From Alphaproteobacteria bacterium (lineage in GTDB: Bacteria > Pseudomonadota > Alphaproteobacteria > UBA6615), in assembly GCA_039980135.1 (NCBI GenBank), contig JBDXCV010000009.1:1-64000 (forward strand): a stretch of DNA of 64,000 nucleotides, written 5' to 3'. This document shows, one piece after another, positions 27,400 to 43,312 of the stretch. Below the pieces are notes generated by a model. It was not told the DNA's origin, searched no databases, and saw nothing but the letters and a program-made list of their open reading frames with translations. Every line of letters begins with the position of its first letter. The first letter of the stretch is position 1. Made by a program: the position numbers and the translations under genes.

Positions 27400-27520
27400 C
27401 TCTGATCCTCGATATTCTACCAAGCTTACCGCCCGGTTGACCCCGGCCACGTCGGGCAATCTAATGCGATTCGCCCGCCCCACCCCATCCATCCGATCAA
27501 CTCCGAGCAACTGGCCAACC

Positions 27521-29209
27521 ATGAGTGAGCAGACGTCGCAAGACTTCCATCATCCCGGCAGCGGGCGCCGCAAGGCACCATCCCACCCGAAAGGACGACA
27601 GGTCGACGCCGACGCGCTCACGGAGGTTCATGCGCTTCTCGGAGACGCGCCGCTGCATCGCGAGCTTCTGATCGAGCATCTGCATGTGATCCAGGACGCC
27701 CATCACGGCCTGTCGCCGCGCCATCTCGCGGCACTGGCCGACCTGATGAAACTGTCCCTGGTCGAAGTCTATGAGGTCGCGACCTTCTATGCCCATTTCG
27801 ATGTCGCGACCGACGACAATGTGAAGATGCCGGCGGTGACGGTGCGCGTCTGCGACAGCCTGCCTTGCATGCAGGCCGGGTCGGAAAAACTGCTGGCCGT
27901 GCTTGAAACCCAAACCGCAGACGATGTGCGTGTCGTTAGCGCACCCTGCATGGGCCGCTGCGACCATGCGCCCGTCGCCGAGGTCGGCCACCGGCACATC
28001 GACGTCGCCACTCCGGGAAACGTCACCGCGGCCATTTCCACCGGTGAGACCCACCCCCAAATCGAGCCATACCAGACCCTCGATGTCGCCCTGAAGCGCG
28101 GCGCCTATGGCATTTTCCAGTCTTGCGTCTCGGAGAACCGAACCTACGAGATGGTCCATGGCGCCCTCGACAAGGCTGACTTGCGCGGCATGGGTGGCGC
28201 GGGATTTCCCGTCGCACGAAAATGGGATTTCGTGCGCGCCGAGGACGGCGCGCGGACGGTCGTGATCAACGCCGACGAGGGCGAGCCCGGCACGTTCAAG
28301 GACCGCTACTTCCTCGAGCGCTCTCCTCATTCGATTCTCGAAGGAGCGTTGATCGCGGCCTGGGCCGTCGATGCGGAATCTCTCTGGATCTATCTGCGGG
28401 ACGAGTATCCGGCGGCGCGGGAGATCCTCCGCCGCGAGATCGCGGCAATCGAGGAGTCCGGCATGATCGGACCCGGATACATTCAGCTTCGGCGTGGCGC
28501 GGGCGCCTATATCTGCGGCGAAGAAAGCGCGCTGATCGAATCGATCGAGGGTAAACGAGGTTTGCCCCGCCACCGGCCGCCCTATGTGGCCCAGAACGGG
28601 GTCTTCGGCCAGCCGACACTCGTACACAATGTCGAAACCGTATTCTGGGTCCGCGAGATCCTGGAGTCCGGGGCGGCCTGGTACAAGGATCAGGGCCGGC
28701 GCGGCCACGCCGGCGTGCGGGCCTATTCGGTCTCGGGCCGGGTCAAAAATCCGGGTGTAAAAATCGCGCCCAACGGCATCACCCTGAACGAGCTGGTTGA
28801 GGAATATTGCGACGGCATGGCCAACGGTCACGACCTTCGCGCCTACCTTCCCGGCGGGGCCTCGGGGGGCATCCTGCCCGCATCCATGGCCGATCTGCCG
28901 CTCGCATTCGGATCACTCGAGGAGCATGGCGCGTTCGTGGGATCCGGGGCGGTAGTGGTGCTATCGCAGGAAGATGATGTCCGCGCGGCAGCGCTGAACC
29001 TGACGCAATTCTTCGAGGATGAAAGCTGCGGCCAGTGCACCCCGTGCCGGGTGGGCTGCGAGAAGGCCGTCAAGCTGATGCAGGCGGGCGACTGGGATGC
29101 GGACTTGCTCGGCGAGTTGGCCCAGACCATGCGCGACGCCTCGATTTGCGGGCTGGGTCAGGCCGCGCCCAACCCGATGGAGAGCGTGCTCAGATACTTC
29201 GCCGACTAG
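27521..29209 (+). CDS. NAD-dependent formate dehydrogenase, fused gamma-beta subunit
   Basis: The start used is ATG 27521 (MSEQTSQDFHHPG); a 28-residue upstream extension has no family similarity. The 562-residue protein fuses a NuoE-like [2Fe-2S] domain (VRVCDSLPCMQAGSEKLL and SAPCMGRCDHAPVAEV give four Cys) to a NuoF-like domain with GMGGAGFPVARKWDF (FMN), INADEGEPGTFKDRYFLERS (NAD), GAGAYICGEESALIESIEGK and the 4Fe-4S set in SCGQCTPCRVGC plus SICGLGQ. It passes electrons from formate to NAD. FdsG and FdsB are separate proteins in Rhodobacter and Cupriavidus. The catalytic subunit is about 9 kb away. Confidence 0.9.
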   Translation: MSEQTSQDFHHPGSGRRKAPSHPKGRQVDADALTEVHALLGDAPLHRELLIEHLHVIQDAHHGLSPRHLAALADLMKLSLVEVYEVATFYAHFDVATDDNVKMPAVTVRVCDSLPCMQAGSEKLLAVLETQTADDVRVVSAPCMGRCDHAPVAEVGHRHIDVATPGNVTAAISTGETHPQIEPYQTLDVALKRGAYGIFQSCVSENRTYEMVHGALDKADLRGMGGAGFPVARKWDFVRAEDGARTVVINADEGEPGTFKDRYFLERSPHSILEGALIAAWAVDAESLWIYLRDEYPAAREILRREIAAIEESGMIGPGYIQLRRGAGAYICGEESALIESIEGKRGLPRHRPPYVAQNGVFGQPTLVHNVETVFWVREILESGAAWYKDQGRRGHAGVRAYSVSGRVKNPGVKIAPNGITLNELVEEYCDGMANGHDLRAYLPGGASGGILPASMADLPLAFGSLEEHGAFVGSGAVVVLSQEDDVRAAALNLTQFFEDESCGQCTPCRVGCEKAVKLMQAGDWDADLLGELAQTMRDASICGLGQAAPNPMESVLRYFAD

Positions 29210-30777
29210 GTCGATTGAAGCGGCCGTCGTGCGTCGCCGCGCCCGGGGACACAGACCGTCACGGCCGTTCCCTGGCCGGGGGTGCTGGTGACGGTAATCT
29301 CTCCCCCATGCGCATCGATAATCCGCTTGCAGATCCAGAGCCCGAGGCCCGCGCCGCCATTCTCGCGCGCGACAAGCGGGTCGATCGTTCGAAACGGTTC
29401 GAAGAGCCGCGGCAACTCGGCTTCATCTATGCCACAGCCCGTATCCCTGACAGTGATATCCGCCGCACCGCCGCCAACGCGGATGCATGAGACTTCCACA
29501 CTTCCGCCGCGCGGTGTGAACTTGAAGGCGTTGGAAAGAAGATTGAACATCACCTGACGCAGCGCACGGAGATCGATATCGAGTTCGAATCCCGGATCGG
29601 GTGTTCTGCCCATGAGTTTGATGCCGCGCTGCTCGGCGAGACTGCGGGTCAGCCGGAAAACATCCGACACAAAGCGACCGGCGGCGATCCTCTCGATATC
29701 GAGATTGTCGTCTGCAATATCGAGACACGAAACGTTCAGAAGGTCTTCCACCACCGACAGCAAATGCTGCGCACTGTCGAGAATGTCCGTCGCGTATCCC
29801 TTGTAGCTCTTGTTCTCCATCGGGCCGACCAGTTCCTTGGTCATGACTTCCGAGAATCCGATAATCGCGTTGAGGGGCGTCCGCAACTCATGACTCATCG
29901 TCGCGAGAAACTGGTTGGTGACAGCGTTTGCCGTGATCGCGATATCACGTTCGCTCAGCAACTCCTGGGCATAACGCTCCGCCTCGACCCGCTTGGTGAT
30001 ATCCCGCCCCGTCCCGCGATACCCCATGAAGTTCTGTGTCTCGTCGAAAATCGGGTGCCCGGAAATAGAGGCGTGTCCGATTTCCCCGGCTCCCGTCTTG
30101 AAGACATATTCGAGGTCGCGGAACGGTCGGCAGGCTTCGAGATCTTCCATGTGGTGCCGCCATTTTTCCTCGAATTCCTCATTCCGCGATTCCACGCCGA
30201 TGTCCTGCATCAATTCCAGCCGCGTGACACCGAGGACTTCGTCCAGCGGATAGCCGTAATAGTTGAAGACCGAGGACGAGTAGTAGACGAATCGGTGGTT
30301 TTCATCGGTCTCCCACAACCAGTCGGACCCGGCTTCCGCGAAGGCGCGAAATCGCGCCTCTGCCTGCGCCAACTGATCCCGCGCCTGGCGCAACTCTTCC
30401 GACCGATCAACCTGTTCTGGCGCCAGCTCGTCCAGATCAATCGCATGCACCAGCATCGCCGTTCGGCCATCGGCCTGCGGAACACCGCAACAACGCAAAC
30501 GAACGGTCACCGGCTCACCCTTCGGATAAAGCGTCCAGGCCGCATCCACGCTCTCGTCCCGCGAGAAACGGTCGGCATATTCGCGCAATCGCGAATGGGT
30601 TACATCCGAGACATTGGACATATCACGCGCTTGCAACTCCGCGAGGGATTCCGCCCGCCAGAATTCAACCGCAGCTTCGTTGCCCCACAAGACCCGATGA
30701 TGATCCAGATCGAAAACCCAGATGGGGACACCAATCAAAGACCAGCCTTCGGTATCGATCGTAAGTGCTTCCGTCAT
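29206..30777 (-). CDS. PAS-domain sensor histidine kinase
   Basis: The 523-residue protein has two PAS-like sensor parts (IGVPIWVFDLDHHRVLWGNE at the N-terminus; AGSDWLWETDENHRFVYYSS from about 145) and a kinase core: H-box NQFLATMSHELRTPLNAIIG, N-box LRQVMFNLLSNAFKFT, and G-boxes in DITVRDTGCGIDEAEL and GGAGLGLWICKRIIDAHGGE. No membrane helix or receiver is seen, so it is soluble and its response regulator is not adjacent. DivJ/PleC-like cell-cycle kinases share this core. It overlaps the fused formate dehydrogenase gene by 4 bases, convergently. Confidence 0.88.
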   Translation of the reverse strand: MTEALTIDTEGWSLIGVPIWVFDLDHHRVLWGNEAAVEFWRAESLAELQARDMSNVSDVTHSRLREYADRFSRDESVDAAWTLYPKGEPVTVRLRCCGVPQADGRTAMLVHAIDLDELAPEQVDRSEELRQARDQLAQAEARFRAFAEAGSDWLWETDENHRFVYYSSSVFNYYGYPLDEVLGVTRLELMQDIGVESRNEEFEEKWRHHMEDLEACRPFRDLEYVFKTGAGEIGHASISGHPIFDETQNFMGYRGTGRDITKRVEAERYAQELLSERDIAITANAVTNQFLATMSHELRTPLNAIIGFSEVMTKELVGPMENKSYKGYATDILDSAQHLLSVVEDLLNVSCLDIADDNLDIERIAAGRFVSDVFRLTRSLAEQRGIKLMGRTPDPGFELDIDLRALRQVMFNLLSNAFKFTPRGGSVEVSCIRVGGGAADITVRDTGCGIDEAELPRLFEPFRTIDPLVARENGGAGLGLWICKRIIDAHGGEITVTSTPGQGTAVTVCVPGRGDARRPLQST

Positions 30778-30860: not shown

Positions 30861-30951
30861 TTAATCGCCAAATACCCAGCGATACATATGGAAATCGTCC
30901 TGATAACCGCCATTCGCGGAAAACGGCTCATTCGCCCAGAATTCATCGGCG
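30861..30951 (-). pseudogene. Displaced 3' end of the YciI-like gene (left direct repeat)
   Basis: This 91-base stretch matches 36238-36328, the last 30 codons of the intact YciI-like gene, at 85 of 91 positions; 30889-30951 is identical over 63 bases. It still ends at a stop codon (TAA for TAG), and all six differences fall on third codon positions in that reading (two change the residue, Ile to Met and Gln to His). No 5' part of the gene is attached. With the right copy it brackets a 5.3-kb block of unknown genes. The last bases overlap the end of the 423-residue protein gene. Confidence 0.85.
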
Positions 30952-32214
30952 ACCCGCGCTCAGTCCCTCAAGGTAGATTTCCGCATCCCGCAGATGCTCG
31001 TTGTCGGGAAGAATGCGGCGGCGCTCCCGGATGTATTCCAGCGAACGGTCCCAATCCCCCTTGCCGAATTCAAGGGCATCCAGCACGGCATGCGTCCGCG
31101 ACGGCGCTTGGGCGAGGAGCCTCGCCGCGGACGGATTGCGCATGACCTCTCCGCGAGTAATTTGTTCGAGTTGACTCGTGACGACCGCCCCGACGCCATC
31201 GGGATCATCCTCGTAAAAGAATTCTGCGGCCTGCTCCATCAGCCGGAGCGCGCGTTCGGGCTGCGCCCCGGACACGGCCAGGGCCCAGCCGAGACGCCAT
31301 GTCTGCTCGGCCTCGGCCTGATCGCGAAGCGACACATAGATCGCATCCCGCTCACCGGGCTGCAGCCGTTCGTCGGCCGCCGCACGGAGCTGTCGCGCCC
31401 AGATGATCGCGTCGTTCAGCGCCGAGCGGGTGCTCGGCGATGTCGCAGCCTGCCCCCGGGCCTCCGTGAAAATACGGACCGCGTCCTCGTAATTGCCCTG
31501 CCCCAGGCGGTACGCGCCCCGGAGGATCATTCCGTGGATCGCAATATCCGTACGCTCGACCTGTCGTTCCGCTTCGTACGGGTCGACGAGCGGGCCACCC
31601 GATGGAATGGCGCCCGAGAGCATGCGTTGGTTCACCAGCTCGTCGAGCCGAGCGACAAACGCGTCATGGTCCGTCCCGTTCGATTGCAGGCCGATGAACT
31701 CGCGGGCGCGCGCATAGGCGCCCCGTCCAACCTTCAACAAGCTCAGGAGAAACCCCGTGCGGGAGGTCGCCGACCAGTCGGCCCACAGGGCCTCGTCGAA
31801 AAGCGCGTCCAGTTTGTCATCGGTCCGCCGACCTGCATGGACCTCGAAGCCGGCCATGATGCGTTCGAATTCACCGCGCAGCCGTGCCGACTCCAATTCG
31901 TTACAGAAGGCGCCGACAGCGTCGTTCAGGCGCGCGCGCCGGTCGAGAAGTTGCCCCTGTTCCACCGCGCAATTCTCGAACGCAGCGGTTCCCTGGCCCA
32001 CGCTTTCACAGCGCGTGTTGAACCGTTCGCCGCGGGCGACAAGTGCAATCTGTTCGCTCAGCAAATTCGTTCGGCGGGCCTCGAACGTCCGGGCCGTTTC
32101 GCCCGTTAGAACCGGTGATATCGGGCAAATTCTGATGAACTGGGCCTGGGCAGAAGACATCGTGGCAATTTGTGCCAGCACCGCGATGACAACACCGAAG
32201 ATTCGTATCGGCAT
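30943..32214 (-). CDS. Exported TPR-like protein of unknown function
   Basis: The start used is ATG 32214; an in-frame TTG at 32238 is possible. The 423-residue protein has a signal peptide (MPIRIFGVVIAVLAQIATMS then SAQAQ) and Cys in FIRICPISPV just after the likely cut. The mature part is helical, Arg/Ala/Glu-rich, with TPR-like stretches such as RGAYRLGQGNYEDAVRIFTE and later LEYIRERRRILPDNEHLRDA. No catalytic motif was recognised. It is divergent to the Sel1 gene, and its last codons lie inside the left direct repeat, so it is the left end of the inserted block. Confidence 0.65.
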   Translation of the reverse strand: MPIRIFGVVIAVLAQIATMSSAQAQFIRICPISPVLTGETARTFEARRTNLLSEQIALVARGERFNTRCESVGQGTAAFENCAVEQGQLLDRRARLNDAVGAFCNELESARLRGEFERIMAGFEVHAGRRTDDKLDALFDEALWADWSATSRTGFLLSLLKVGRGAYARAREFIGLQSNGTDHDAFVARLDELVNQRMLSGAIPSGGPLVDPYEAERQVERTDIAIHGMILRGAYRLGQGNYEDAVRIFTEARGQAATSPSTRSALNDAIIWARQLRAAADERLQPGERDAIYVSLRDQAEAEQTWRLGWALAVSGAQPERALRLMEQAAEFFYEDDPDGVGAVVTSQLEQITRGEVMRNPSAARLLAQAPSRTHAVLDALEFGKGDWDRSLEYIRERRRILPDNEHLRDAEIYLEGLSAGRR

Positions 32215-32301
32215 GAGGAAGAGTCGCCTTGGTTGCAATTCGTCTCTAAGCTATGCCGCAACGACGGTACGGTGACGGGATCGTGTTTGTCGAGCATTGC
32301 T

Positions 32302-34230
32302 ATGAAACCTAGATATTTCGCCTCTCTGGCGATCCTTGGATTTCTTGCCGCATTGGCCCCCGCACAGCGAGGCCTTGCTTGCGATCTCACCTGTTCAAAT
32401 AACGTCTACTACGGGTGGCGCGCCTATCAATCTGACAATCATGCCGAAGCACTAAAATATTGGCGGGACTCCGCCGCGCAGGGCAGCGGCGAGGCCATGC
32501 ACGGCATCGGTACGCTCCACCTTGAAGGCAAAGCTGTCCCCCGAGACATGAGAGCGGCGGCGGATTGGTTCCGGAAAGGCGCCGAAGCCGGTTACTGGGC
32601 GGCCAAGATCGACTACGCACGCCAACTGATTTTGGGTGACGCCATCGAGCAGGACATCGCCAGTGCAGCGCTTTGGTTGCGGCGTTCGGTATTCGAGAAC
32701 GGGGTCGTCAACGGCACTGTTGCGTTGGACCAAGCTTCAGCGGATATCCATCACGAATACGATTCCGACAAATACCTGTGCTGGCGTCATCCATCGCGTA
32801 TCGAGAGGTTCACCGATTTCGTTCGTGAACTCGTACCCCAAAACAATGCCAGAAATTCAGCCGAAGCATTCGGCAAAGGCGATGGGCTCCTGGGCGGAAG
32901 AAAGCACGTCTATTATTTCCGAAGCACGGCACAAACGGAGGCGTACCTGCTGCACAACGGCGCCACAAAGTGCGGTCTGTACGAATGGAATCCAAACCGG
33001 AAGCCGTCATCACGTGCCGTCGAAGCCCACTATGTCGATCTTGGATGGGTTCGCCGGGCACTCAAGGCCGCGATTATCCTGGAGCCAGCCGAAGAGATTT
33101 ACTGGATCGATTATGCGCGGGCGTGGGCGATAAGCTCGCTCGAGTTTCCCCGCAATCTTCGGCTCGCGACCGACGCATGGGAGCATGTGTGGGCCATGCT
33201 CGCCGGCCAGGATCCGCAGTTACGGCAAGCCCGGTTGCGTCGGTTGCGCGAGGAGTTTGGGTTTTCGCTCGATCGTAGCGTTCTCGCCGAAATCGCCGAA
33301 CTTCATCTCCGACAAGCCAATTTCGACGCCGCATTTTTTTTCGCTTCTCAGATTTATGACGACTGGATCGACGGCGCGATCACCGAAGAGATGGACAATC
33401 TCGCTGCCGCAACGGGGATTGCGCGCGGCGGCGTCCCGGGTCTCGAGGACGCAAAGCAAATGGTCGAGGCTGTGCGCAACCGTGACGGTCGTCGCGCGTC
33501 CTGGTCCAATGCCGTGGACAGGGAAGATCGACACTTCCCCTGGCAGGAGTTCTGCGGCACCCGCGGTCGGCCCAGCGAGAAATCGATCATGCTCGTCGAC
33601 GCCATGCAGCAGCTGGCCAGTGCTGCATCCAAAGCGGGGAACGTCTACGCCAAGTACGAACTTTATCAGATGGTTCGCCTTGGCCAGAATATCCGACAGG
33701 ACGCACAGGACTACATCGACTATTTCCAAAACTACACCTGCGATCCGGACAAACGGATACCGGACTTCGATGAAGTGGGAGCGTATATCGACGACGCACG
33801 AGCGGCCATGCCCATTCCAAAGCTGTCGCGCGTAGGTACACTGTTGCTCGCCCAGGGAGAAGCGGCGGCTGACGCGGGCAACTTCGAGAGTGCACGACGC
33901 GCCTACCAGGACCTCGTGAACTCCTACGAGCCTTGGTATCCGCCGGCCTATTTCAATCGCGCCATGGCCGGCGCGGCGGTCTTCGGTATCAATCGGGACA
34001 CCGTCGAATGGCTGCAGACCTATCTCGAACTCGCGCCACACGGCGAGCGGGCCGACGAAGCCCGTCGGCTGATCGCGGAGTGGACACCGATGATCGACGG
34101 CATGGCCCGCCAGGGCCGAAACATGGATGGCGAAATGGTGATCCAGCCCGACCATGCGGTGATCGAATACCGCGAGACCGACGACAACGACAATACGGCA
34201 AACAGTTTCGGCGACAACGACTTCGATTAG
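32302..34230 (+). CDS. Exported Sel1-repeat protein of unknown function
   Basis: The start is ATG 32302 (MKPRYFASLAILGFLAALAP), which opens a signal peptide ending near RGLACDL. Longer frames start inside the divergent gene. The 642-residue protein has two or three Sel1/TPR-like repeats near the N-terminus (YYGWRAYQSDNHAEALKYWR, GIGTLHLEGKAVPRDMRAAA, WFRKGAEAGYWAAKIDYARQ), then a long region of unrecognised sequence, and TPR-like repeats near the end. A C-terminal Asp/Asn-rich tail follows. It leads a run of four rightward genes with 5- to 27-base gaps. Sel1 proteins often work as scaffolds; no function is assigned. Confidence 0.65.
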   Translation: MKPRYFASLAILGFLAALAPAQRGLACDLTCSNNVYYGWRAYQSDNHAEALKYWRDSAAQGSGEAMHGIGTLHLEGKAVPRDMRAAADWFRKGAEAGYWAAKIDYARQLILGDAIEQDIASAALWLRRSVFENGVVNGTVALDQASADIHHEYDSDKYLCWRHPSRIERFTDFVRELVPQNNARNSAEAFGKGDGLLGGRKHVYYFRSTAQTEAYLLHNGATKCGLYEWNPNRKPSSRAVEAHYVDLGWVRRALKAAIILEPAEEIYWIDYARAWAISSLEFPRNLRLATDAWEHVWAMLAGQDPQLRQARLRRLREEFGFSLDRSVLAEIAELHLRQANFDAAFFFASQIYDDWIDGAITEEMDNLAAATGIARGGVPGLEDAKQMVEAVRNRDGRRASWSNAVDREDRHFPWQEFCGTRGRPSEKSIMLVDAMQQLASAASKAGNVYAKYELYQMVRLGQNIRQDAQDYIDYFQNYTCDPDKRIPDFDEVGAYIDDARAAMPIPKLSRVGTLLLAQGEAAADAGNFESARRAYQDLVNSYEPWYPPAYFNRAMAGAAVFGINRDTVEWLQTYLELAPHGERADEARRLIAEWTPMIDGMARQGRNMDGEMVIQPDHAVIEYRETDDNDNTANSFGDNDFD

Positions 34231-34235
34231 GCAGT

Positions 34236-35279
34236 ATGCGACGATTCACAATCCATCTTCTCTTATTGGCCGGTCTGGCGGTATCGGCGATTTCGATGTC
34301 CGGCCCTGGCTATTCCCAGTCGATCGGGCCAGGACGCTGCGTACCCTGCCCGGAATGTCCGCCATGTGGTGATAGCTACAGCGGCGGCGGCGGTTCGGGC
34401 AGCGGCACCCCGGTGCTATTTTGCTTGTTCGTGCCGGGCTTGTGCCCCGGGTTCGGTGCCAGCACCAGCGAAGCTCCACCGACAGCAAAACCGGAAATGC
34501 CGCGCGTGATGCGGGATTGGCTTGGCGTACAGAAATCGATCCGCAGCAACCTTTCCGAGCGCATTATCCGCACGGACCCGAAACACAGCGCGACCGTGCG
34601 ATCCTCGGCAAATCTTTCAGACGGACGGACCGGAACCGCCTTTTTTACGCCACCGGGCGGCCGCCTGGATGAATTTCTACCAAATCCTCCCGAAGCCAGT
34701 CTCTTGGTTCCCAGCGGCCCGAAAGTGAAGGTGGACGCGACACTTGAGCAGTTGCAGTACGCGCTGGCGATCGTTCGGGAAGCGGACAAACAAAAAAACA
34801 GGGACAATCCGGAAGCGTACCGGTTTCTCCTCGACCAGGCCGGGCATATGCTCGCCGGCGAACCTGTGCAGCTGTACCTCGGCAACCTTCAGCCCGTACC
34901 CGCAACCGGGGCCGATCTCGATGCGATCGAGGACCTTTACGATGAACTCGGTGACGTGCGCGAGGGACGGGTCGCGATTGCCCGAGAGAAAGTCGGCGTC
35001 GCTCGGCAATCCGAGCGAACCGAGGCCAGAATAGATCAACACGACGGGTTTCGCTTCTACCTGTCCGACGAAAAGCCCAGTTCGCCCGAACTGCGGCAAG
35101 CGTTCAAAACCCAGGAGGAATTGGGTGATTCCTATGAGCGTTTCTTGATCAAGGACCGTGAACTTCGGCAGGAATACCGGGAGAAGGCCGAGGCGGTGAT
35201 GAAGGATTTACCGACCGTCGGATTCCACTTCGGAACCAAGATCGTCGATCAAAAACCTCCGAACGACACTGCCCGGTAG
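34236..35279 (+). CDS. Exported protein with Cys-rich N-terminus, unknown family
   Basis: The start is ATG 34236, 5 bases after the Sel1 gene stop; the frame is open further back but inside that gene. The 347-residue protein has a signal peptide (MRRFTIHLLLLAGLAVSAIS), then CVPCPECPPCGD, a Gly/Ser linker and CLFVPGLCPGF. The rest is charged and helical (for example LEQLQYALAIVREADKQKN, and RELRQEYREKAEAVMKDLP). The CxxCxxCxxC spacing could bind metal or form disulfides. No family was recognised. It is the second gene of the rightward block inside the direct repeats. Confidence 0.6.
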   Translation: MRRFTIHLLLLAGLAVSAISMSGPGYSQSIGPGRCVPCPECPPCGDSYSGGGGSGSGTPVLFCLFVPGLCPGFGASTSEAPPTAKPEMPRVMRDWLGVQKSIRSNLSERIIRTDPKHSATVRSSANLSDGRTGTAFFTPPGGRLDEFLPNPPEASLLVPSGPKVKVDATLEQLQYALAIVREADKQKNRDNPEAYRFLLDQAGHMLAGEPVQLYLGNLQPVPATGADLDAIEDLYDELGDVREGRVAIAREKVGVARQSERTEARIDQHDGFRFYLSDEKPSSPELRQAFKTQEELGDSYERFLIKDRELRQEYREKAEAVMKDLPTVGFHFGTKIVDQKPPNDTAR

Positions 35280-35306
35280 GCGGGATTTCACGAAAGGTGC
35301 GCACAA

Positions 35307-35600
35307 ATGTGTGTTCGACCGTTTGTAGTGGGTATTCTGGCAATAACCATGATCGTCGGCACACAAGCCCCGTCGATCGCTCAGAACGGAAATCCGTTCG
35401 TCAATCCGGGACAGGAGTCCGCCGGATCGGGCGCGCCGCGCAACCCGGGGAACGCCGGTGCACCCAGACTCGACCAGGGCTCCCTCCCGGTCATTTACCC
35501 GGTGGTCATACCGAATCCGCAAAATACGACGGCCGGGTCGGCCCGGGTCGTGCCGGTCCCGCGAGCGCCGCGGCCGATCCCCGAACGCGCGCGGGACTAA
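35307..35600 (+). CDS. Small exported Pro-rich protein
   Basis: The 97-residue protein starts at ATG 35307 (MCVRPFVVGILAITMIVGTQ, cut near SIAQ) with AAAGG upstream. The mature part is Asn/Pro/Gly-rich with PVVIPNP and VPRAPRPIPERARD. Such low-complexity exported proteins may be cell-wall or surface linkers, but none is recognised. Its stop (TAA) overlaps the next start by one base (TAATG), so the two are translationally coupled. Confidence 0.5.
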   Translation: MCVRPFVVGILAITMIVGTQAPSIAQNGNPFVNPGQESAGSGAPRNPGNAGAPRLDQGSLPVIYPVVIPNPQNTTAGSARVVPVPRAPRPIPERARD

Positions 35601-36241
35601 TGCTCGAAGAAGCGCCCCGGAGCGCGGAACTTGTCGCGCTCGCCGTCGCCGGATTCGGTGCAGTAATTATTCTCTATTCGATTCTCCTGAGGCGAAGCAT
35701 TTTGGTCATGACGCTCGGTGCGCTGATCGGCGCCGGAGCGCTCATCTCGCCGATGTTGTTGCGCGACCGCCCCGTAAACGTCCTGATCGTCCAAAGTTCT
35801 GAATCCGGTATCGAAACCGTTCGCGCGGACAATTTCCATGGCGGCAGTTACACGGACGCTAATGGCCGCACGATCCACATCGATCGACAACCCGGCTGGG
35901 GACCCGTCGCCACCATTGTTGTCAACGACACAGCGCACCTCGTCCGCATTCTCGGTTATGCCTATTCCCAATCGGGACTGGGTGCCGGGGGCGAATCATT
36001 GATCGCTGTCATTCCGCCGGGCAGCATGTCCGCACTCGCCGTCACGCCAGCCCTCGCCACATCCGAAACAGAGCCACCACCCGAGACGATATCCGCGGCT
36101 GGACCGTTCTATGATTTGGTGATCGCCCAGTGGTCCCAGGTTCCATATGACGCCGCCCGTGACGGAACGATTGAATCGCTTCGGGCCAGAGTCGAGATCG
36201 CGGAACTCGTCTACGACAATACTGACTTCATTCGACCCTAA
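35600..36241 (+). CDS. Membrane protein of unknown function
   Basis: The start is ATG 35600, one base into the previous stop. The 213-residue protein begins MLEEAPRSAELVALAVAGF and has two membrane segments (LVALAVAGFGAVIILYSILL and ILVMTLGALIGAGALISPML), then a soluble domain of about 150 residues (VNVLIVQSSESGIETVRADN and GWGPVATIVVNDTAHLVRIL) that faces one side of the membrane. No homologue was recognised. Its stop codon falls in the right direct repeat and overlaps the YciI-like gene end by 4 bases, convergently. Confidence 0.55.
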   Translation: MLEEAPRSAELVALAVAGFGAVIILYSILLRRSILVMTLGALIGAGALISPMLLRDRPVNVLIVQSSESGIETVRADNFHGGSYTDANGRTIHIDRQPGWGPVATIVVNDTAHLVRILGYAYSQSGLGAGGESLIAVIPPGSMSALAVTPALATSETEPPPETISAAGPFYDLVIAQWSQVPYDAARDGTIESLRARVEIAELVYDNTDFIRP

Positions 36242-36328
36242 TCCCCGAACACCCAGCGATAGATCTGGAAATCGTCCTGATAACCGCCATTCGCGGAAAA
36301 CGGCTCATTCGCCCAGAATTCATCGGCG
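36238..36328 (-). repeat. Right direct repeat (3' end of the YciI-like gene)
   Basis: These 91 bases match 30861-30951 at 85 positions, with 36266-36328 identical to 30889-30951. The repeats have the same orientation and are 5377 bases apart. They bracket a block of five unknown genes. Confidence 0.9.
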
Positions 36329-36921
36329 GCGGCACGGTCGGGCAACTCGATCATCAGCGCCGAGCCCACATTCTCGGTTCCATCCGGTGACCGCAGAGGG
36401 CCACGGAAAATGAAACGGTCCTCATGGGCCTTGAAGAAATCCTCATGGGCTTTCAGATGCACGGCGATGAACGGCGCGGCATCGGGAATCTTCCAGCCGA
36501 AATACAGGAACTGCTGTTCACCCTTGCGCGCGTAGTCGGCCTGGCGCTTGATAAAACTGTTCGACCAGCGGCGAACGTCTGTCCGGTCATAGACCCCGGC
36601 CTTCGCCAGAGGGTCGTCGGCCGCAAAGGCCTCCGCGAATTCCCGGCCGCCGAGCTCGACGAACCACGCCGTCGCCCGGATATCGCTTTCGTCATCGTCG
36701 CCGACGATATGGCCGTAGCCGATCAGCTGGTCACCGAGTGACTTGGCATAGGCCTTCTGGGCTTCGAGGTTGGCGGCGCGGGCATCGGCCTGGCCGGGCT
36801 TGTCCCAGGCGACGATGACCCATTGTGCGGGCTTGTCGCGATAATATTGCGCCAGTTCATCCGGCGTCAGCCCGTAACGCGGGTCGTCGGGCTGATAGCC
36901 GGTGATTTTTTCGTCGCTCAT
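36238..36921 (-). CDS. YciI-family protein with two YciI-like domains
   Basis: The 227-residue protein has two tandem dimeric ferredoxin-like YciI domains. The first contains PAQWVIVAWDKPGQADARAA and GYGHIVGDDDESDIRATAWF, then EFAEAFAADDPLAKAGVYD. The second contains FIAVHLKAHEDFFKAHEDRF, GSALMIELPDRAAADEFWAN and a PFSANGGYQDDFQ end. YciI proteins are small cytoplasmic enzymes or scaffolds with an active-site His-Asp pair; here no function is fixed. It is intact, but the last 30 codons are repeated at the left end of the adjacent block. It converges with that block. Confidence 0.75.
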   Translation of the reverse strand: MSDEKITGYQPDDPRYGLTPDELAQYYRDKPAQWVIVAWDKPGQADARAANLEAQKAYAKSLGDQLIGYGHIVGDDDESDIRATAWFVELGGREFAEAFAADDPLAKAGVYDRTDVRRWSNSFIKRQADYARKGEQQFLYFGWKIPDAAPFIAVHLKAHEDFFKAHEDRFIFRGPLRSPDGTENVGSALMIELPDRAAADEFWANEPFSANGGYQDDFQIYRWVFGD

Positions 36922-36968: not shown

Positions 36969-37004
36969 CGGGTGCGGTCAATATCTTCTGGTTGACCGCA
37001 CCCG
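36969..37004. repeat. 13-bp perfect inverted repeat
   Basis: Arms 36969-36981 and 36992-37004 are perfectly complementary, with a 10-base loop. It lies 48 bases upstream of the YciI-like start, in the divergent gap. No T-run follows, so an operator or RNA stem is as likely as a terminator. Confidence 0.65.
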
Positions 37005-37045
37005 CGAACGCGCCTACAAGCCGCGCCATGATCAACCGAACCGCC

Positions 37046-41009: not shown

Positions 41010-41020
41010 ATAACCTCCAA

Positions 41021-41099
41021 TCGTCATGCGCGGACTTGATCCGCGCATCTCTGTCTCAACAGCTGAATGAGATGCCCGGGTCGAGCCCGGGCATGACGA
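41021..41099. repeat. Palindromic repeat, TCGTCATGC...GCATGACGA type
   Basis: The outer arms TCGTCATGC and GCATGACGA enclose two inner palindromes (around 41028-41046 and 41075-41091). This matches an interspersed repeat common between genes in many alphaproteobacteria. It follows fdsA by 11 bases and could end or stabilise that mRNA. Confidence 0.75.
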
Positions 41100-42099: not shown

Positions 42100-42723
42100 C
42101 TATTTCAAGCTTGTGAAAAATCTCTCCGCCGCCGCGACGTCTTCCGGACGGTTGATGTTGAAGAACGGATCGACCACCAACACGGGAAATGGAACCGCTG
42201 TCAGCCGGTGGCGCGCGGTCCAGCGATCGACCTTGCGAATGTCCTCATCGACCAGCGCGCGACGCAAATCCTCACGCAAACCGACTGGCCAGAGACCGAA
42301 TACCGGGTGCGTCCGCCCCCCGGATTCCGCGCATGCTAGGTCGGTATCGTCGAAATCAACGGCCTCAACGAAGCGCGCGACCAGGTCTTCGGGGAAGAAC
42401 GGCGCGTCCGTCGCAACCGTCACCACCCACTCACATTCGGGGGCGTTTTCCGCCGCCCAATCGAGGCCGGCGAGTATACCTGCCAGGGGACCTGCGAACC
42501 CCTCGACGGTATCGGGCACAACCGGCAATCCGAACGAGCCAAACCGTGCCGGATCGCCGTTGGCGTTGAGGGCGATTCGCGAGACTTGTGGCCTGAGACG
42601 TTCGATCGCGTGGGCCAGCAGGGGCCGCCCCGCGACCTCCTGCAGCGCCTTGTCGCCGCCGCCGAGGCGCCGCGCCTGCCCGCCGGCGAGGATGACGCCA
42701 AGAATGGACAAAGATTCACTCAA
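42100..42723 (-). CDS. mobA: Molybdenum cofactor guanylyltransferase MobA
   Basis: The protein has the MobA nucleotidyltransferase pattern: GVILAGGQARRLGGGDKALQ near the N-terminus, LPVVPDTVEGFAGPLAGILA, VVTVATDAPFFPEDLVARF and DPFFNINRPEDVAAAERF at the end. It attaches GMP to molybdopterin to give MGD, needed by formate dehydrogenase. No ATG or GTG is in a suitable place. The start used is TTG 42723, which overlaps the upstream stop (TTGA), giving 207 residues; TTG 42711 is also possible. A second, orphaned mobA 5' end lies at 43193-43312, so this start may be secondary. Confidence 0.8.
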   Translation of the reverse strand: MSESLSILGVILAGGQARRLGGGDKALQEVAGRPLLAHAIERLRPQVSRIALNANGDPARFGSFGLPVVPDTVEGFAGPLAGILAGLDWAAENAPECEWVVTVATDAPFFPEDLVARFVEAVDFDDTDLACAESGGRTHPVFGLWPVGLREDLRRALVDEDIRKVDRWTARHRLTAVPFPVLVVDPFFNINRPEDVAAAERFFTSLK

Positions 42724-43196: not shown

Positions 43197-43312
43197 AGCT
43201 TGGTCCTCAGCGCCGTTCGTCGAACGGCCTTATCGCTGCGCACGAACCGCCGCGCCTGCCCGCCGGCCAGGATGACGCCGAGGACGGAATCCGGGTCAAA
43301 CGCCTGTGTCAT
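43193..43312 (-). pseudogene. Orphaned MobA N-terminal fragment (39 codons)
   Basis: ATG 43312 opens a 39-residue frame, with SVLGVILAGGQARRFVRSDK, then a TGA that overlaps the next start (ATGA). The segment LGVILAGGQARR is the same as in mobA, and 43249-43286 matches 42669-42706 at nearly every base. The motif after it (FVRSDKAV for LGGGDKAL) has lost the Gly-Gly of the nucleotide loop, so it cannot act as MobA. It is either a relic of the original mobA start or a displaced copy. It still might serve as a leader for translation of the membrane protein. Confidence 0.7.

Follow-up and report, generated by a model that had tools for sequence, protein, structure and literature searches.

A 5.3-kb block of essentially orphan genes lies between direct repeats of a YciI-like gene end and most likely entered by recombination that left the gene whole

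The window, i.e. the whole stretch of 64,000 nucleotides (nt) that was analysed, contains genes in the local order fdsGB (fused), a PAS-histidine kinase gene (29206–30777, minus strand), a displaced end of a YciI-like gene (left copy), P1 to P5, an intact YciI-like gene encoding 227 amino acids (36238–36921, minus strand), a GNAT gene, FKBP and fdhF. In the first of these, FdsG and FdsB are apparently fused in a single open frame (27437–29209) with a NuoE-like part followed by a NuoF-like part. P1 to P5 form a block of 5.3 kb (30952–36237) that is bracketed by direct repeats of 91 nt. The left copy (30861–30951, minus strand) adjoins the histidine kinase gene and represents the displaced last 30 codons of the YciI-like gene, stop included, terminating in ...DDFHMYRWVFGD-TAA, while the right copy (36238–36328, minus strand) is the current 3′ end of the intact gene and terminates in ...DDFQIYRWVFGD-TAG. 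Self-BLAST and a repeat search returned this as the sole pair (30862–30951 and 36239–36328, 94.4% identity, E ~4e-31), the length of 91 nt resulting from the 90-nt match plus the final base of the stop codon, and genome-wide the 91-nt gene end occurs in just two copies. The end of the target gene is repeated directly on both flanks, and YciI is kept in frame.

A first-pass annotation of this DNA had described these repeats of a gene end, with 63 identical bases and six mismatches exclusively in third codon positions, as well as the termination of both end genes of the block within them, and both descriptions proved accurate. The stop codons of P1 (30943–30945) and P5 (36239–36241) are supplied by the repeats. 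In the repeats themselves, 85 of the 91 positions are identical, 63 of them consecutively (30889–30951 and 36266–36328); the 63-nt core of the left copy (30889–30951, minus strand) is presumed to be the region of crossover. All six mismatches are confined to the 28 nt nearest the stop, four being silent and two changing the encoded residue (Gln/His and Ile/Met). The probability is ~6e-4 for their clustering in the last 28 nt and ~1e-3 for their restriction to third positions, both values being computed post hoc with the pattern already seen. Since a useless copied gene end would collect changes anywhere, the codon pattern means that the copies stem from two different alleles, each part of a functional gene under coding selection, and not from a decaying duplicate. 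In the window, the 28-nt ends of both copies are about equally distant from all relatives.

The proteins encoded by the block appear to be essentially orphans. P1 (30943–32238, minus strand) is TPR-like; P2 (32302–34230, plus strand, 642 amino acids) has a Sel1-repeat N-terminal part followed by an orphan remainder; P3 (34236–35279, plus strand, 347 amino acids) is an orphan with a Cys/Gly-rich N-terminal part; and P4 (35307–35600, plus strand, 97 amino acids) is likewise an orphan. For P5 (35600–36241, plus strand, 213 amino acids), whose stop overlaps the right repeat, two membrane helices in the N-terminal part are predicted by a low-confidence model. The N-termini of P1 to P4 were judged by eye to be signal-peptide-like, and translation of the block genes and export of their products are probable. 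Pfam matches in the block were limited to weak ones to TPR (P1) and Sel1 (P2), the few from NCBIfam and PHROG were either weak or concerned families of unknown function, and a PADLOC scan of the block for defence systems gave no match. DNA or protein searches, in the collections to which each was applied, revealed no relatives of the block in plasmids, phages or viral contigs, and a scan of genome contigs with P1 found no block relative either. Matches of P2 elsewhere were rejected as block relatives, as their similarity is solely through the Sel1 repeats, and a weak P3 match in genome G386 and a short P1 match in genome G332 were judged not useful. Single-sequence structure predictions of P3 (pLDDT 39) and P5 (pLDDT 47) were too poor for use. 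GC and GC3 content give no sign that the block is foreign. The similarity of P1 to other proteins reaches residue 427–429 of its 431 residues, and distant relatives extend 88–274 residues further (the last 50 residues were compared), so P1 may have been cut at the junction.

We searched 60 related genomes with YciI and read 13 regions from 12 genomes at the locus. The block is present in none of the 12 relatives read, and it is absent from the 24 family genomes and 385 class genomes searched; a donor genome with P1 to P5 beside YciI was not found among the genomes searched. The case in which all relatives carry the block, which would speak against an insertion, was hence not seen. Two relatives, G022 and G011, possess the order fdsB, kinase, YciI and GNAT without the block and represent the empty site that the first-pass annotation had proposed to look for, as judged from gene order and at genus distance. 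In nine further genomes (G002, G004, G006, G012, G018, G007, G014, G003 and G001), fdsB adjoins YciI or its remains without the kinase, and G020 has neither kinase nor block at the locus. In relatives, decay of the YciI-like gene is recurrent: G003 has a deletion that fuses GNAT codon 57 to YciI codon 197 (L051:5530–5628), G001 harbors a YciI pseudogene (L049:9396–9776), YciI of G011 has a frame break (L046:9840–10519) and that of G002 one internal stop (L042).

The absence of the block from relatives bears on the idea that a YciI segment was duplicated in tandem and then drifted, with the block already there. Such a duplication would need no transfer, but drift would scatter the changes, and all six lie in third positions within 28 nt of the stop; we regard it as very improbable. 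We are equally sceptical of an assembly chimera. The genome may derive from metagenomic data, like the locus of the nearest relative (G022), but the collapse of a shared 63-nt repeat cannot create the inner left junction from the YciI core to P1, reading frames pass cleanly through both junctions, and the contig has a length of 796 kb.

The comparison with relatives further shows that YciI itself was swapped for an allele of a kind found in another genus, since the YciI tree conflicts with the trees of its neighbours. Its closest homolog, at 82%, is from a different genus, and it shares just 64–66% with the congeners of the window's genome. While fdsB and GNAT place the window with its congeners, YciI joins the window to G022 at full support, and a constraint keeping YciI with the congeners was rejected (p-AU 1.6e-20). 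Similarity of the DNA to congeners breaks off at the fdsB stop codon and returns abruptly near 37,000, the right end of the swapped tract lying at 36985–37020, where DNA of ~92% similarity to congeners begins again. The kinase, which adjoins YciI in two relatives and is missing in congeners, was found at high similarity only in G022 and G011 among the relatives. Among informative sites in the three kinases, 53 link the window with G022 and 75 link it with G011, whereas the same test for YciI gave 56 and 15 sites, respectively. Co-transfer of the kinase with YciI was rejected, as the kinase shows no particular resemblance to its G022 counterpart. Because the kinase does not share the history of YciI, at least two histories meet between kinase and YciI, i.e. 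at the block.

A swap of this kind could be part of a linear import, in which incoming DNA paired homologously on the YciI side and was joined illegitimately or by template switching on the other side, a short overlap duplicating the gene end. The clear allele swap of YciI with its sharp right border fits this scenario, as do the left junctions in GC-rich codons and the unrelated GNAT–YciI deletion of G003, which lies almost at the repeat boundary; homology-facilitated illegitimate recombination has moreover been described (PMC3240628). However, a pair of crossovers on a single chromosome leads to replacement of DNA and not to duplication of 63 nt, which would require sister copies or replication restart. 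It would further have to account for a duplication of 63–64 identical nt in both this case and a second one described below, and we consider linear import improbable. The homologous replacement that the first-pass annotation had offered as one option accounts for the swapped YciI body but does not by itself create the duplicated end.

We also searched for the machinery of a site-specific insertion. Domain searches found neither an integrase nor a transposase in the block, in agreement with the earlier statement that no integrase is present. The genome encodes two tyrosine recombinases, whose best matches are XerD and XerC, the latter match being below the cut-off of that model, and the search for a large serine recombinase in it was negative. 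The region and the YciI gene end, whose 63-base core had been proposed earlier as a query against phages, integrative elements and other genomes, had no match in phage, plasmid and viral-contig collections, and the YciI end and YciI protein gave nothing against viral contigs. No second element resides at the YciI gene end among the relatives read at the locus, and no element with this att site turned up in relatives or in viral, phage and plasmid collections, an absence that applies to these sets and is no proof beyond them. Transposons typically leave a target duplication of 2–14 bp and encode a transposase. The 91-nt coding repeat and the lack of a transposase do not fit a transposon insertion at this locus.

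On these grounds it is unlikely that an integrase, later lost as in CIMEs or acting in trans, put in an element whose attP mimicked the YciI 3′ end. The anatomy does correspond to icd::e14, with a displaced gene end, a replacement end supplied by the element and a long identity block (PMC6379469). Identity blocks in such genes can reach ~250 bp (PMC10111431), CIMEs retain attL and attR and lose their integration genes (PMC5704250), and in a circle P1 and P5 would be convergent around attP. Against this stand the missing integrase in a genome with only XerC/XerD-like tyrosine recombinases and no large serine recombinase, the missing matches in phages, plasmids and viral contigs, the missing second element at the YciI gene end and, in the second case, an unrelated core and a native holin gene cut at the junction. 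In the window case, an integrase-driven insertion with subsequent loss of the integrase would nonetheless leave an identical picture.

The second case emerged from a survey of direct repeats on two contigs (1.96 Mb of the 3.76-Mb genome), which yielded dispersed palindromic repeats, paralogues and one further gene-end repeat pair. This pair is located on contig C9, the contig of the window, and measures 101 nt (394352–394452 and 402035–402135), comprising 64 identical nt and four mismatches, one in a second and three in third codon positions, all within the 37 nt nearest the stop. Its target gene belongs to the isocitrate/isopropylmalate dehydrogenase family. The 7.6 kb inside the pair contain two amidase-like genes (one of them scanned), genes for an NMT1-like binding protein and a HAD hydrolase, and two isochorismatase-like genes (identified by eye), and the genes read included no integrase. 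In congeners G002, G004 and G006, a GH108 endolysin and a GTA-type 3TM holin lie between the dehydrogenase and a convergent TPP-enzyme gene (L185:254–1394), while in G003 the dehydrogenase-family gene and the TPP-enzyme gene meet tail to tail. The left copy of the second case meets the TPP gene exactly as in G003, by a tail-to-tail overlap. The holin is whole in congeners, whereas the window's genome retains a decayed remnant that lacks the front, shows 73–76% to the congeners' holin and starts within ~35 nt of the left copy. The right copy matches the gene end of G006 and G002 better than the left copy does (86 versus 82 of 101 positions), as it does that of G004 (83 versus 80). The GTA-type holin and GH108 endolysin of the congeners raised the idea that a gene transfer agent had delivered the DNA, but this is not proposed, as GTA_TIM was found in none of the 24 family genomes.

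The second case, although unrelated, has the same anatomy as the window case, and no motif is common to both repeat cores beyond chance. Its pattern is what a circularised chromosomal fragment reaching from the holin to the gene end would give upon a single crossover in the gene end. That a different gene carries an insertion built in the same way, yet with no common core sequence, together with the recombinase and mobile-element searches, argues against the specific attachment site that the first-pass annotation had suggested. The other part of that suggestion, that the gene end was brought in as a further copy, is supported by the empty sites, the absence of the block from relatives and the codon pattern of the mismatches. 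Most likely, DNA carrying its own copy of the gene end recombined into the chromosome, and the gene stayed intact.

The best explanation for the window case, which we put forward tentatively and at a little below an even chance, is a circularised chromosomal fragment that was inserted by a single RecA-type crossover via the YciI end. The source would be a piece of the chromosome of a related bacterium carrying P1 to P5 and the last 91 nt of the neighbouring YciI gene. It would have been circularised by end joining, the cut end in P1 being ligated to the cut end within YciI, and a single exchange of the RecA type, located in the stretch of 63 identical nt at the end of the resident YciI, would then yield kinase, resident end (left copy), block and incoming end (right copy) on the resident gene body, with YciI left whole. 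The YciI body up to ~37,000 would have been swapped separately or come from the same donor lineage. The circular intermediate, the role of RecA, the identity of the resident end and the direction of transfer are inferred. In E. coli, incoming linear DNA can circularise and integrate by a single RecA-dependent crossover (PMC3240628). We favour such a crossover because the second case combines the same anatomy with a holin cut at the outer junction, and by analogy with it the window case is read as a circularised fragment reaching from within P1 to 91 nt inside YciI, which the extent of P1 at the junction weakly supports. To reconcile 63 identical nt with alleles differing at 6 of the last 9–10 codons, this reading has to invoke coincidence, mismatch correction close to the crossover point or a donor that is very closely related.

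Among known systems, e14 and phage 21-type insertions in icd of Escherichia coli resemble the window case in their position within a gene near its 3′ end, in the displaced end at the far side and in a replacement end from the incoming DNA with few changes, which measures 163 bp in e14 (PMC6379469). In contrast to them, the block is only 5.3 kb in size, has neither an integrase nor phage genes, and has a sister case in the same genome with another target and no common core. As in CIMEs, a duplicated gene end brackets a block without integration or transfer genes (PMC5704250), yet no related ICE/IME or integrase for this target was found here. Campbell-type single-crossover integration of circularised DNA likewise duplicates the region of homology on both flanks (PMC3240628), although the E. 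coli case involved a laboratory plasmid and the present one a natural block with ~63 nt of identity within 91 nt of homology. The route of gene gain is unusual but already known, and the structure is of a known kind.

Two unrelated blocks on one contig, each with ~63 identical nt, divergence towards the stop, an apparent gene cut at the outer junction and no integrase, could point to a general integrase-free route by which circularised chromosomal fragments are inserted without breaking the target gene. We consider this generalisation speculative and rather doubtful; if true, integrase-based island finders would miss such insertions. A small block was gained here, apparently without an integrase and without breaking the gene that was entered, and the duplication of a gene end whose changes are confined to the vicinity of the stop provides a testable signature for similar insertions. 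The block adds five almost unstudied proteins, most of them predicted to be exported.

Further features were noted to the right of the block. Between YciI and GNAT, the segment 37028–37190 contains an open frame of 31 codons (MINRTAMMNYMWKLAARRASEGGSVFVRTMA) and a hairpin that has a T run and resembles a terminator, an arrangement that is conserved in several relatives and resembles a leader peptide with an attenuator ahead of GNAT. A dispersed palindromic repeat of ~80 nt (CGTCATGCCCGGACTTGATCCGGGCATCTC...) is located at 41019–41099 and in at least 10 other places on C9, with many on C9 and C3. The start of a mobA-like gene (GVILAGGQARR...) is accompanied by a second short fragment 580 nt upstream that is 82% identical (42647–42708 and 43227–43288).
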